From: Chitinophagaceae bacterium
GTDB lineage: Bacteria > Bacteroidota > Bacteroidia > Chitinophagales > UBA10324
NCBI GenBank assembly: GCA_947469485.1
Contig: CANIPU010000018.1
Span: 1 to 59,746 of the forward strand
Length of the DNA: 59,746 nt
Direction of reading: 5' to 3'
Shown here one piece after another: positions 4,193-9,753 of the stretch. Positions within the stretch are counted from its first letter, which is position 1. Each line of letters starts with the position of its first letter. Under the pieces are notes generated by a model. That model was not told where the DNA came from, did not search any database, and was given only the letters and a program-made list of their open reading frames with translations. A program made the position numbers and the translations under genes.

Positions 4193-4810
4193 CTACTGTA
4201 TTACTACCTCAACCGGTGCGGTAAAGTTGAGCACATTTGATGCTCCCTTGTAAGCCCCAATAAAAGTATAGCGGCTGCCCGATACCAGACCATCAATGGC
4301 AAAACTGCGGCGAGTATCAATGGTGGTTGGCCACAAATTGCGGTCGGTTTTTATTTCGTTGGTAAGGCGCACCATGTAAGCAGCCCCGCGCATGGCACCA
4401 AAGTCAACCATTGCCCTGCCCGGTTCGCGGCTGGCAATAACGCTGAACACATCAGGCATTTTATATGGCCCCTTTGGTTCAGGCATTTTAGCCATGGTAT
4501 AACCACTGCTTTTTAGTTTTACCTCATCGCCATCGGCGGTGGCATTAATGTACACCCCGTTTTTGCTGATGCCTGTGAGCAGGTTTTTTTTCGCCTCATT
4601 TTTTTCGGCGGTTTGCTCAGGTGTGCCATGCAGTGCCGCTGCCAGCTTGGCTAAATAGTCGTTAATGAGCAACAGAAATGCCGCAAGGGCAACCGGCAGT
4701 GACGGAAACGAGGTATTGCCCGTTAGGCTGTCGTGCATGGTGTTGGCTGTTGTACCCAGGTTATCCTGACGAACAGCGCTGTAGTTGGTTTTTACTTTTG
4801 CTTGTCGCAT
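4193..4810 (-). CDS. Hypothetical protein with C-terminal FN3-like segment, GC-richer than its surroundings
   Basis: A 205-aa protein without signal peptide. Residues about 20-75 are helical and alanine-rich (SFPSLPVALAAFLLLINDY, then LAKLAAALHGTPEQTAEKN). The C-terminal third ends like a fibronectin type III domain, with SFAIDGLVSGSRYTFIGAY. This helix-plus-FN3 layout occurs in poorly characterised Bacteroidota proteins; I know no function for it. The gene is visibly richer in G+C and uses different codons from its AT-rich neighbours, which may mean transfer or high expression. It lies downstream of the LytTR gene on the same strand, 194 bp away, with an inverted repeat in the gap. Confidence 0.7.
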   Translation of the reverse strand: MRQAKVKTNYSAVRQDNLGTTANTMHDSLTGNTSFPSLPVALAAFLLLINDYLAKLAAALHGTPEQTAEKNEAKKNLLTGISKNGVYINATADGDEVKLKSSGYTMAKMPEPKGPYKMPDVFSVIASREPGRAMVDFGAMRGAAYMVRLTNEIKTDRNLWPTTIDTRRSFAIDGLVSGSRYTFIGAYKGASNVLNFTAPVEVVIQ

Positions 4811-5004: not shown

Positions 5005-5499
5005 TTAATTTTCATTTGACCCATTACTTGGATTGCTAAGATCTAAAGCAATGATGCTTATGAGCGATTTCAGACTTTTCATATAATTACGCGATACAGG
5101 TACTACATCGCCGTTTGAGAGTCTTAACTGGCTATCGGTGAAGCCAATAAAACTAACATTCCAAAGATTCACCAGATATGAATTATGCACCCTAAAAATC
5201 CCGACTGTTCGCAGTTTTTTCTCCAATTCGCCAAGCGATTTTGAAAATGCCAGCTTTTCTGTTTTGCGGTTATAAAAATAACTTAGTTCGCTGCAACGGC
5301 CCTTTGCTTCAATTTTAAGCAATAGCTTTGGATTTAAACCAATAAATCCGGTTCGCTTGTAAGGCAGAAATACTTTTTTTTTGGTTTCAGCAGAGCTAAT
5401 CAGGTACAAAATTTTTTTCAGTAATTTAACTCTTTCCTTAATTGTGCTGCAGGTATTTAACTGCGCCAATATTTTGTTAATCATTTCGTTGTTTTCCAT
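5005..5499 (-). CDS. LytTR-domain DNA-binding protein without receiver domain
   Basis: A 164-aa protein. The C-terminal LytTR DNA-binding domain runs from about residue 58 to 158: LLLKIEAKGRC starts it, FRVHNSYLVNL is near 102-112, and VPVSRNYMKSLK is near 133-144. These are the family's hallmark positions. No response-regulator receiver is fused; the first ~50 residues are helical and basic. LytTR proteins bind pairs of short direct repeats upstream of their targets. A phased 63-bp tandem repeat lies in the region upstream of this gene, and an FN3-like gene follows it on the same strand; both are plausible targets (inference). No sensor kinase is adjacent. Confidence 0.85.
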   Translation of the reverse strand: MENNEMINKILAQLNTCSTIKERVKLLKKILYLISSAETKKKVFLPYKRTGFIGLNPKLLLKIEAKGRCSELSYFYNRKTEKLAFSKSLGELEKKLRTVGIFRVHNSYLVNLWNVSFIGFTDSQLRLSNGDVVPVSRNYMKSLKSLISIIALDLSNPSNGSNEN

Positions 5500-5686
5500 A
5501 GGGTTTAATTTTTAGTGAACTGAAAAATTATTACAGATTTAAAAATCCACCAAATCACTCGTCGAAAAGTTGGAGAGATTTACAAACCACAACAGTGCGT
5601 TTTTTAGCTAAAAACAAGGTTTTTGTACTTCTGTAATAATTTTTTGCATTCATTCGTCGACCAAATTGATACCTGCAGAAATAAAT

Positions 5687-5938
5687 GATACTTACACAGC
5701 TCCTGTGTAAACAACTGTAGTTGCTAAATCAACACATCTGGTAATTAAAGATACTTACACAGCTATTTTGTAAATAGCAATAACCGCTGAATAAATACAC
5801 CTGATAATAAAAGATACTTACATAGTTGCTGAATTAACATCAACAGCCACTAAACAAGTATCAACAGCAATAAAAGGTGTTTACAAAACGGTTTTGTAAA
5901 GCAATGTTTCAGTTTTGTTATAAACTCGTTTTACAGGA
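5687..5938. repeat. 63-bp imperfect tandem repeat, four copies
   Basis: Copies begin at 5687, 5750, 5813 and 5876, spaced exactly 63 bp. The first three begin GATACTTACA; the second and third end AATAAAA and the first ends TAATTAAA. The fourth is diverged but keeps the start of the unit. The head of copy 1 is a palindrome, TTACACAG-CTC-CTGTGTAA; copy 4 has TTTACAAAAC-G-GTTTTGTAAA, a different sequence that is still a perfect palindrome. A weaker fifth copy may precede it from about 5625. 63 bp equals six turns of B-DNA. Confidence 0.8.
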
Positions 5939-6153
5939 AACATTTTTAAAATCTGAATCGTAAAAAATTTCAGAATCAATTCATGTGATTCAAATTTTTT
6001 TTGTTAAGAATCATTCAAAGGCAGCCTGAGGGGTTGCCTTTGATTGTTTATGGCAACCATAGCCGTTTTTATAAGTACTTACTATACCTCTTTTATATTT
6101 ATACCACTTGCATGGTTTTTTTAGTGAAAATTATGCTGGGGTTTTGTGAAAGC

Positions 6154-6179
6154 CCTTCGGTAATACGAAGGTTTTTTTT
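6154..6179 (+). terminator. Intrinsic terminator 1 of a tandem series
   Basis: CCTTCG (6154-6159) pairs with CGAAGG (6166-6171), followed by eight T. No protein gene precedes it on this strand, so it ends either a short non-coding transcript or nothing. Confidence 0.65.
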
Positions 6180-6189
6180 ATTTTTACAG

Positions 6190-6392
6190 CACAAGGGTGA
6201 TTCATGTAAAACTACCCGGTCTGGTAGTTTGAAGGTGCAGCAGGATGGCAGTAGTGGCCCTTGTTAAACTTTGAAAGGTGGTTGCCACTCTGCTAAATTC
6301 TTAAACCTGAATCGTAAGCCATAAGCTATGCTGCATTATGACTGACTACTGCAAAAGCAGTGAAAAGCCTTTCAGAAATGAAAGGTTTTTTG
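6190..6392 (+). ncRNA. Candidate structured non-coding RNA ending in an intrinsic terminator
   Basis: About 200 nt with four consecutive stems. AAACTACC (6209-6216) pairs with GGTAGTTT (6223-6230). AGCAGGATGGCA (6239-6250) pairs with TGCCACTCTGCT (6283-6294), 12 positions with one mismatch and one wobble, and its loop holds a further CCTT/AAGG pairing. ACTGC-AAAA-GCAGT lies at 6348-6361. The last stem, at 6368-6385, has a GAAA tetraloop and a T-run. The preceding terminator at 6154-6179 marks it off as its own unit. No known RNA family was recognised, and the 5' end is a guess. Confidence 0.45.
6368..6391 (+). terminator. Intrinsic terminator 2 of the series (3' end of the RNA candidate)
   Basis: CCTTTCA (6368-6374), GAAA loop, TGAAAGG (6379-6385), then six T. 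Confidence 0.75.
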
Positions 6393-6407
6393 TATGGATT
6401 ATATAAG

Positions 6408-6415
6408 TAAATTTG
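6408..6415 (+). promoter_or_regulatory. Possible -7 box (TAAATTTG) for the restriction-modification gene
   Basis: Exact TAnnTTTG match between terminators 2 and 3. A transcript starting here would run into the terminator-like hairpin at 6458-6487 before the enzyme's ATG at 6527. No good -33 element was seen. Confidence 0.35.
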
Positions 6416-6457
6416 ATTTTTCATTTTGTTTGTAGTAGTAATTAATTGTTTTTATTA

Positions 6458-6487
6458 AGCCTTTCGGGTAACCGGAGGGCTTTTTTA
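6458..6487 (+). terminator. Intrinsic terminator 3, in the leader of the restriction-modification gene
   Basis: AGCCTTTCGG (6458-6467), GTAA loop, CCGGAGGGCT (6472-6481) pair over all ten positions (two G-U), followed by a T-run. It ends 40 bp before the ATG at 6527. It overlaps the longer in-frame start at 6446, which argues against that start. It may end an upstream transcript or attenuate the enzyme gene. Confidence 0.75.
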
Positions 6488-6526
6488 TTTTATGCTTTTA
6501 CTACATTGCAGCACCAAATATTTTTA

Positions 6527-9500
6527 ATGACCCTATCCGATTACATAAATCTTATCAGCAAGCGATACGCTGCCGGAACTGCTACTGAACATACTTATCG
6601 CGGCGACTTACAAAATCTCATTCAGGATTTATGTGAGGGTGTGTTAGCCACCAACGAACCGCAGCGAATTGCATGTGGCGCTCCTGATTATGTATTGACC
6701 AGAAAAAATATTCCGGTTGGTTACATTGAAGCGAAGGATGTGAACGACAAATTAGATGCAGATAAAAGCCACGACGAACAATTCACGCGCTACAAAAAAT
6801 CGTTAGACAATTTAGTGTTTACCGATTACCTCGATTTTCATTTTTATAAAAACGGCGAAAGTGTAACAGCCATTCGCATTGCAAAAACCGAAGGCAAAAA
6901 AATTATTCCGCTCACCGAAAACTTTAATGCTTTCACTTCGCTCATAAAAGATTTCTGTTTTTATCAAGGGCAAACCATAAAATCATCTCAAAAACTTTCG
7001 GAGATGATGGCGGGCAAGGCGCGCATGTTGGCGAATGTGATTGAGCGCGCACTCACAAGCGACGAAGAAAATGCGGCTGACTCTTCACTGAAAGAGCAGA
7101 TGAAAGCATTCAAGGATATATTGATTCATGATATAACGGCAAAAGAATTTTCCGACATCTATGCGCAAACCGTTGCTTACGGCATGTTCGCTGCGCGACT
7201 GCACGATGCATCGCTCGATGGTTTCACACGGCAGGAAGCAGCGGAGCTGATTCCGAAATCGAATCCGTTTTTGCGCAAGCTGTTTGGCTATATAGCCGGA
7301 CCTGATATTGACGACCGCATAGTTTGGATTGTAGATGCGCTTGCCGATATTTTTCGGGCGGCTGATGTAAAAGCCATTTTAAAAAATTTTGGAAAGAGCA
7401 CGCAACAGCAAGACCCCATCATTCATTTTTACGAAAATTTTCTGGCAGAGTACGACCCTAAGCTGCGCAAGGCGCGCGGGGTGTGGTACACACCCGAACC
7501 TGTGGTGAATTTTATTGTGCGCGCCGTAGATGATATTTTAAAAACTGAATTCAATTTGCCCGATGGGTTGGCTGACCGCAGTAAAACCAAGGTGAAAATA
7601 AAAGCTGTTACCAAAGCAACTTCTGATATGCGATCAAAAGTGAAGGACACTTTTGTGGAGCAGGAAGTACACAAGGTGCAGATACTCGACCCTGCCACCG
7701 GCACCGGAACTTTTTTAGCGGAAGTAATAAAACAGATTTACAAAAAATTTGAAGACCAGAAAGGTGTGTGGAGCAATTATGTGGAAGAACACCTGGTGCC
7801 GCGGCTCAATGGTTTTGAATTGCTGATGGCGAGTTATGCCATGGCGCACCTGAAACTCGATTTGCTGCTGACCGAAACCGGATACAAACCAAAAAAGCAA
7901 AACCGACTGCGTGTTTACCTCACCAATAGTTTGGAAGAACATCACCCCGACACCGGAACCTTGTTTGCAAACTGGTTAAGCACCGAAGCAAACGAAGCAA
8001 ATTATATTAAGCGCGATACTCCTGTTATGGTGGTAATGGGTAATCCGCCATATAGTATTAGCAGCAGTAATAAAAGTGTATGGATTGAAAAATTGATGGT
8101 TGATTATAAAAAAGATTTGAATGAAAAAAATATTCAACCGCTTTCAGACGATTATTTAAAATTCATTCGCTATGGTCAACACTTCATTGAAAAGAATGGT
8201 GAAGGAATTTTAGCTTACATATCAAATAACAGTTTCATTGATGGAATAATACACCGTCAAGTTCGTAAGAACTTACTCGAAACTTTCGATAAGATTTATA
8301 TTCTGGATTTACATGGAAACAGTAAGAAAAAAGAAATAGCTCCTGATGGTTCTAGTGATCAAAATGTATTTGATATTATGCAAGGAGTTAGCATCAATAT
8401 TTTTGTAAAAACTGGATTGAAAAAAGAAAAAGAATTTGGAGAAATAAATCACTTTGAATTGTGGGGAAAAAGAGAAATTAAATATGAATCATTATTAAAA
8501 CAAAGCCTTAAAAGAATTGCTTGGAATAAACTGAAAGCTAAAAGACCAAACTTCTATTTTGTAACTAAAGATTTTAGTGGTGAAAGAAAATTTGAACTCG
8601 GATTTAAAATAAATGAATTGTTTATTATTTCAGGACCAGGTGTTGAGACTGGGTTAGATTCTTTATTTGTTTCGGATGATAAAATTGATTTGCAAGAAAG
8701 ATTTAAAAAACTAATTTCAAAAGACAATTATGAATTTAAGTTGATGCAAATTGAGAATAAAAAATCATTTCAAATAAAAGATAAACTATTAAAGGAAGAT
8801 TTGAGCAATCCCAAAATTGATATTTATAAATACCATTATAAAGCATTTGATTTTAAGTTCATAAAGTATCTTAAAAATAGTTTGAGAAGAGCAGACTATA
8901 CAGTGTTCAGTCACATTTTAAAAAGTGAAAATTTGTACTTGAATTTAATGAGGGCAGCCGTTGACACAGAAAATTTTCAGAGCATCTTAATTTCAAATTC
9001 AATTATTGATAAAAATCTTTTCAGTTTTCAAACATATGCTTATCCCCTCTACCTCTACCCCGAAAACAAATCACAAAAAACACTTTACGAAACACAAGAG
9101 CGCACACCCAACCTCAATAAAGAAATAGTAGAAAAAATTGCAGCAACATTGGGTTTAACTTTTACAGCAGAAAAAGAAAACAAGAAAAACACTTTTGCAC
9201 CCATTGATATTTTAGATTACATCTATGCAGTCTTACACTCACCAACTTATCGCGACAAGTACAAAGAGTTTTTGAAAATAGATTTTCCGCGGGTGCCTTA
9301 TCCGAAAGATGAATTAACTTTTCGGTTATTGGTAAAACTCGGCGGCGAGTTGCGGCAAATACATTTACTAGAAAGTGTAACAGTTAATAAACCCATCACC
9401 AGTTTTCCGGTGGATGGCAGCAACGAAGTAGTGAAACTGAAGTACGAAAACAAAAAAGTATTCATCAATGACGAACAGTATTTTGATAAAGTGCCGCAAG

Positions 9501-9670: not shown

Positions 9671-9753
9671 AAAAATACGGGGAAGCCGAAAACCGAATAG
9701 AGTAAGCAAACAAAAAGTGCGGAGTCAGCACGATAATCACTGACAACAATAAA

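Follow-up and report, generated by a model that had tools for sequence, protein, structure and literature searches.

Closest described systems

Among the closest described counterparts of the array reported here are the repeats of the LytTR regulatory system (LRS). As described in two studies, LytTR operators consist of 9-bp repeats separated by a 12-bp gap, in a minority of cases 11 or 13 bp, with a repeat-to-repeat spacing of 21 bp (20-22); the conservation of sequence is low and that of spacing is high, and the operators described there carry two repeats (PMC6193735, PMC2714321). The LRS repeats lie upstream of an operon, and their partner is a membrane inhibitor. The RemA target at the Bacillus eps promoter comprises several poorly conserved upstream repeats read by an oligomer, with 7-bp protected repeats at 3-bp intervals and one conserved regulator. 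Cooperative multimers are also formed on BldC sites, where a short AT-rich direct repeat with a consensus occurs in variable number and is bound head to tail rather than as symmetric sites. Minisatellites and VNTRs are tandem, homogenised and fast-evolving as well, and ordinary ones are not known to follow a particular gene family or to share a single period.

Here we describe a tandem array in a 59,746-nt stretch of Chitinophagaceae DNA (GCA_947469485.1, contig CANIPU010000018.1; hereafter the window). It belongs to a class of elements accompanying genes for an Fn3-like protein (FN) and is not a general feature of LytTR genes. These arrays resemble LRS repeats in a spacing of 21 bp (20-22) that is kept while the sequence is poorly kept, in their upstream position and, in this genus, in the presence of a LytTR gene. 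They differ in that the window array has about twelve units instead of two, no LytTR gene was found beside most FN arrays, the FN units are often dyadic, and the partner is an Fn3-like protein rather than a membrane inhibitor. Compared with the RemA target, FN arrays have units of about 21 bp that are private to the locus. The likeness to BldC sites lies in direct repeats of variable number and, in the model proposed below, in cooperative loading. From ordinary minisatellites FN arrays differ in their tie to one gene family and in their period, mostly a multiple of 21 or 22 bp, which was seen upstream of 0 of 248 control genes. No description of FN-linked arrays was found in the open-licence literature searched.

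The window array

The array spans positions 5680-5931, without an assigned strand, and comprises four 63-bp copies starting at 5680, 5743, 5806 and 5869, a register 7 bp before the one used in the preliminary description (5687/5750/5813/5876). The exact spacing reported there (63, 63 and 63 bp) was borne out by an autocorrelation of z = 8.9 at lag 63 and by TRF, which returned a period of 63 with 2.3 copies and a score of 167. In pairwise comparison, the copies are identical at 25 to 46 of 63 positions. Lags 63, 126 (z = 7.0) and 21 (z = 4.3) lie above the shuffle limit (z = 3.4, under which 95% of shuffles remain when all lags are considered). This makes 21 bp the base unit, and the array is made of twelve such units (63 = 3 x 21). 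The 63-bp unit proposed earlier thus holds as an exact spacing and gives way to 21 bp as the base period. Lag 84 was borderline, at z = 3.0 in the array and 3.4 in the longer region.

Read on the plus strand, copies 1 (5680-5742) and 4 (5869-5931, the most diverged) carry perfect palindromes at the same place in the unit, TTACACAG-CTC-CTGTGTAA at 5692-5710 and TTTACAAAAC-G-GTTTTGTAAA at 5880-5900, respectively. In copy 2 (5743-5805, plus strand) the copy-1 palindrome is broken and a different one with 7-bp arms (GCTATTT/AAATAGC) is located at 5762-5778, while copy 3 (5806-5868, plus strand) has no perfect palindrome at that place. Among 1000 dinucleotide shuffles, with loops of up to 3, an arm of at least 10 arose in 0.2%, and two centres with arms of at least 8 in none (0/1000). 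The covariation-like pattern of the preliminary description thus holds for two of the four copies, 1 and 4, whose perfect palindromes beat the shuffles; copies 2 and 3 lack that palindrome.

The unit is unique in its 3.08-Mb genome: a search elsewhere, as had been suggested, returned no copy, and pattern matches did not exceed the control. The array is therefore not a dispersed REP or MITE element. One DNA match, in a congener (G005:C12), falls within a coding gene and was taken to be a chance match.

On the minus strand, the array is followed by a LytTR-only gene and then by the FN gene. The lone LytTR protein (5005-5499, 164 aa) matches PF04397 at E 3e-14, and the FN protein (4193-4810, 205 aa) combines an N-terminal domain of about 105 aa with an Fn3-like C-terminal domain, the latter assigned from the family profile. 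The minus-strand region between the array and the LytTR start (5500-5679) contains a 23-nt inverted repeat (5523-5545 and 5622-5644, 87%), which encloses 76 nt before the LytTR start.

Arrays accompany FN genes

Arrays were called at a local self-match score of at least 20, over lags of 10-130, within 1.5 kb upstream. Upstream sequence of 1 kb or more was available for 107 FN genes, of which 96 (about 90%) were preceded by an array, loci of one genome or genus being non-independent, and 11 had none. In 79 of the 96 arrays the best period was exactly a multiple of 21 or of 22 bp; such lags make up 9% of those tested. Most arrays lie 100-900 bp from FN on its upstream side or, in this genus, at that distance before the LytTR-FN pair.

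The first two samples comprised 55 FN loci, 49 of them with at least 1 kb upstream and 41 with an array; the identical FN genes L112 and L113 were counted twice among the loci without one. The best periods were multiples of 21 in 29 arrays, multiples of 22 in 5 and other values in 7 (24, 43, 85, 125, 41, 65 and 106). Nine of the 55 loci were fetched after the pattern had been seen, and they gave six strong 21-based arrays (one of them, L200, already seen before), two weak ones and one locus with none; the best lag of L198 reflects a separate 106-bp duplication. A third sample, fetched as a test at class level, comprised one locus from each of 45 genomes, usually the first listed with enough upstream sequence and picked before any such sequence was seen, and 15 further loci of four genomes. 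Of these 60 loci, 58 had at least 1 kb upstream, and 55 of the 58 carried an array, with best periods at multiples of 21 in 39, multiples of 22 in 6 and other values in 10 (123, 62, 104, 129, 83, 61, 61, 12, 80 and 41, most near multiples of 20-21).

Controls were drawn from five other FN-bearing genomes (G310, G208, G286, G059 and G000), which lie outside the class sample. Upstream of 248 control genes an array was called five times, never at a multiple of 21 or 22. Random stretches totalling 400 kb yielded 12 arrays, three of them non-coding (periods 11, 93 and 96) and nine coding (one at 84). Downstream of FN, arrays were present at 3 of 50 genes (periods 14, 44 and 42).

In a comb scan, the base period or half of it fell at 20-22.2 bp in 84 of 89 arrays, against 18% expected by chance. 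Ten irregular, truncated or marginal arrays (L065, L099, L103, L107, L134, L135, L194, L248, L265 and L267) had been left out before the comb scan and the dyad tests, an omission that favours both results.

The FN profile matched 26 of 396 genomes at the order level, 52 of 395 at the class level (E<=1e-20) and 19 of 395 at the phylum level, where many of the matches are confined to the Fn3 half of other proteins. FN arrays occur in at least two classes of Bacteroidota (L196-L198). The FN family is multi-copy and strongly expanded in some genomes, with at least seven matches in each of G823, G858, G907, G933, G989, G996, G1009, G1051 and G1078, and up to 90 first-look candidates in G858.

A promoter motif of the Bacteroidetes type was not enriched between array and gene (3 of 32, against 4.3 in shuffles), and no promoter was identified, in the window's stretch between array and LytTR start either. 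At L127, a 21-based array (6213-6587) was observed two genes upstream of an FN gene with no array in its own 1.5 kb; it may belong to a longer FN operon. In G170, an element of about 50 bp with an inverted repeat recurs before two FN arrays and once more elsewhere (near L096 5296-5355 and near L101 5233-5284 and 8292-8343).

The LytTR link

In the genus, four relatives of the window FN protein were identified at 61-71% identity, and a LytTR-only gene lies directly upstream of four of the five FN genes, the window's included. The array precedes LytTR in all three of these cassettes with upstream sequence; the fourth (C16) starts at a contig end. The three arrays have periods of 63 bp in the window, 42 bp in L066 (contig C5) and 21/42/63 bp in L064 (G003), the three strongest autocorrelation lags of each are multiples of 21, and their scores upstream of LytTR were 59, 54 and 28, relative to the threshold of 20. 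Two further FN copies in the window genome (C3 and C40) show weak 21-multiple lags only, and the C40 copy has a 65-bp duplication. The LytTR proteins of the other cassettes share 23-30% identity with that of the window and thus diverge between paralogous cassettes much more than the FN proteins do. Among the 60 relatives searched, no close relative of the window LytTR protein was found (best about 30%), and the genome and viral collections returned none. In L066, 21-bp repeats also occur at the beginning of the coding sequence of the paralogous LytTR gene (5239-5330), which encodes a lysine-rich N-terminus.

One reading of these cassettes is a LytTR operator array, in which the tandem 21-bp direct-repeat half-sites would be bound by the adjacent LytTR protein, as activator or repressor of its own LytTR-FN operon, and unlinked LytTR proteins would serve the FN arrays elsewhere. 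The spacing of 21/22 bp, kept over a poorly conserved sequence, is that of the published LytTR repeats cited above, and a lone LytTR gene stands beside FN at four loci of the genus, in three of them between array and FN. All 30 FN genomes tested have LytTR genes, which says little because LytTR genes are common. Against this reading, LytTR was detected beside FN at only 6 of 115 loci (the four cassettes, L122 and, weakly, L261), the last 60 of these loci having been fetched with about 2 kb upstream only, and FN relatives without a LytTR gene also carry arrays. Moreover, the window array has about twelve units rather than the two repeats of the operators described in those studies.

The AgrA-type 9-bp half-site consensus was used as a scan motif and was not enriched (3 of 36 arrays, against 4.9 in shuffles), with no such pair in the window array. 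Arrays within one genome have no detectable common motif. A comparison of 36 LytTR genes over 450 bp upstream, one cassette being without upstream sequence, showed that only 1 of the 32 other LytTR genes reaches the threshold (L026, lag 84, score 20), and longer upstream regions (at least 500 bp, median 1.1 kb) gave the same L026 only, in 1 of 30. An array was thus seen at 1 of 32 other LytTR genes, against 96 of 107 FN genes. As an account of all arrays we regard the operator reading as unlikely, if worth keeping in view. The tie proposed in the preliminary description agrees with the 21/22-bp spacing and with the gene order of the three genus cassettes with upstream sequence, where LytTR separates array and FN, and does not extend to LytTR genes in general; the adjacent gene is found in the window and the genus cassettes and is not a feature of the array class as a whole. 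Because the spacing of 21-22 bp matches that of LytTR repeats, the LytTR protein is the best named candidate reader in this window, though not for the whole class.

Dyad symmetry and folding

In a letter-based dyad test, the 89 arrays gave a mean z of 1.77 (p 5e-15), against 0.12 for the mirror control; the 53 class-sample arrays alone gave 1.58, and 36 of the 89 were dyadic singly at p<0.05. A stricter ungapped inner-arm test was passed by 5 of 30 arrays at p<0.05 (Fisher p 0.001), with p 0.52 for the window. The idea of a phased array with dyads, whose spacing is kept over its sequence, was upheld.

A transcribed repeat RNA, in the form of leader hairpins or an attenuator, would account for the folding energy of the units, which reached z about -2.8 under a simple control and -1.6 and -1.5 on the two strands under a circular, dinucleotide-preserving shuffle of units, with 14 and 15 of 36 arrays, by strand, at p<0.05. 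The window unit folds significantly on one strand only (z -2.8 and +0.2, dinucleotide control), and its copy 1 resembles a terminator stem on the minus strand. Over the whole set, though, folding was equal on both strands (no asymmetry, 16/36, p 0.35), which points to DNA rather than RNA as the acting form, and no Rfam match was found at the array. We consider an RNA element very improbable. A coding-repeat reading was rejected as well: open frames exceed shuffles on both strands alike, by a small margin in the 68 arrays at multiples of 21 (114 vs 99.7 and 121 vs 108.7), and 6 of 10 arrays at multiples of 22 have no open frame on either strand.

The conserved geometry without conserved sequence could also reflect a sequence-independent DNA shape element, with two-turn curvature, a wrapping surface or cruciform-prone dyads recognised by a general nucleoid protein. 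RemA, described as binding poorly conserved repetitive DNA (PMC8481266), offers a precedent. Nevertheless, only 46 of 89 unit consensuses contain an A/T tract of at least four, and curvature caused by A-tracts is thus not a general property. If helical phasing were the sole constraint, periods of 31-32 or 52-53 bp would be allowed too, but only four arrays had their comb optimum at 30-33, with best lags (61, 63, 66 and 126) that also fit three units of about 21. A pure shape element therefore appears doubtful.

Turnover of the unit sequence

Unit sequences are unrelated between most loci, even between paralogues at 70-80% identity, and arrays are homogenised within each locus. Among 27 arrays with aligned FN proteins, 16 pairs have an FN identity of at least 50%, and only the L106/L123 arrays are clearly homologous (score 58). 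The scores of L106/L116 (15) and L066/L064 (14) narrowly pass the null maximum of 13.5, which the remaining 13 of the 16 pairs do not exceed; L066 and L064 share a 27-bp stretch at 93%. Below 50% FN identity, 3 of 335 pairs exceed this maximum. Array pairs within one genome (n=55) were no more similar than reversed controls (8.49 vs 8.49).

One genome contains both L116 and L123, which are paralogues. Their leader is 86% identical from -245 to the start codon, and their arrays begin at -266 and -244 as seen from the gene, where the leader identity stops. The two arrays have no clear similarity (score 12.0; null 95% 10.75, null 99% 13), and in this pair the array differs as a block next to a conserved leader and gene. 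Other FN groups show divergence of the leader as well. The comparisons show that most loci have a unit sequence of their own, which changes more rapidly than the gene (and, in L116/L123, than the leader), with unit length and symmetry kept as the sequence changes. The spacing in relatives (42, 63, 84, 21 or 44 bp) preserves the 21/22-bp base and abandons the number 63.

The differing arrays beside a kept leader and gene, together with the homogenisation within each locus, would also be expected of a self-renewing satellite, generated and homogenised by a two-turn-ruler mechanism without a regulatory role. The constant side and gene association speak against it, and a neutral origin leaves the array at about 90% of FN loci (96/107) unexplained, which makes a satellite quite improbable to us.

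A model for the array class

We tentatively favour a model in which the arrays serve as a DNA platform with multiple sites before FN, whose reader would recognise geometry or be a private, fast-evolving partner; it is a good possibility, short of probable, and this grade covers the model as a whole, from platform and reader to FN regulation. On an array placed before the presumed promoter of FN, symmetric protein dimers would load cooperatively, with one dimer to every two helix turns and all on one face, and would set FN expression. That the array regulates FN is inferred solely from its constant place upstream. Since no common motif is detectable among the arrays of one genome, the reader would recognise geometry rather than a fixed sequence, or would be a fast-evolving private partner, for which the window's LytTR protein is a candidate, as it is for autoregulator.

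More broadly, and somewhat speculatively, FN arrays may form an element class defined by geometry alone, a two-turn period with dyads, free of sequence constraint and rewritten rapidly before an expanded FN family. If so, each array would carry its own address, readable only by geometry or by a co-evolving partner. The usual route to regulatory DNA is conserved sequence; here period and symmetry are the conserved traits, so motif searches would miss the element. The model predicts a 20-22-bp-based array within about 1 kb upstream of any new FN gene, and opens the question of which protein reads the spacing and how arrays are replaced as a block.

The FN protein

The window FN protein alone had no Pfam match. 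The C-terminal fn3 domain was detected at E<=0.01 in 23 of 36 members, the window's not among them, and over positions ~111-205 the profile of the family matches chains such as fibronectin and titin. For the N-terminal ~105 aa, no relative was found in Pfam, nor in NCBIfam for eight members. PADLOC returned two weak single-member matches (AbiJ 0.0018, SspC 0.0062). PHROG matches to phage tail proteins, in up to 14 of 36 members, presumably arise through the Fn3 domain. AlphaFold gave poor models for both FN (mean pLDDT 43.5) and LytTR (42.5). The gene is under purifying selection, with dN/dS of 0.07-0.24 in the 10 of 12 pairs that gave a value.

Iterons of plasmid-type replication have a similar spacing of 21-22 bp, so an origin of this kind, or a CRISPR array, was also considered. 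No replication gene was present among the six window neighbours scanned, three FN proteins had no match in 72,556 plasmids, one had none in 50,697 phages, and close alignment found none in viral contigs. A CRISPR array would have a constant repeat with unique spacers, whereas here the whole unit is repeated and diverged. Both possibilities are practically negligible.

Flanking region

On the plus-strand side, the array is followed by terminator-like hairpins and then by a type ISP restriction-modification gene. Service of this gene by the array, another suggestion of the preliminary description, is unlikely because each paralogue has a different neighbour on that side, while the FN gene is constant. 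The hairpins between array and restriction-modification gene lie at 6015-6043, 6154-6171, 6368-6385 (minus strand) and 6457-6482; in 5400-6600, seven hairpins were called, against 0.6 in shuffles. No Rfam match was found in this hairpin stretch. Related stems occur at 6141 and 6448 within the run, which is possibly a set of tandem small RNAs. Further along the window, a DUF805b cis-regulatory RNA (RF02914) was identified at 9676-9708 (E 6e-8).
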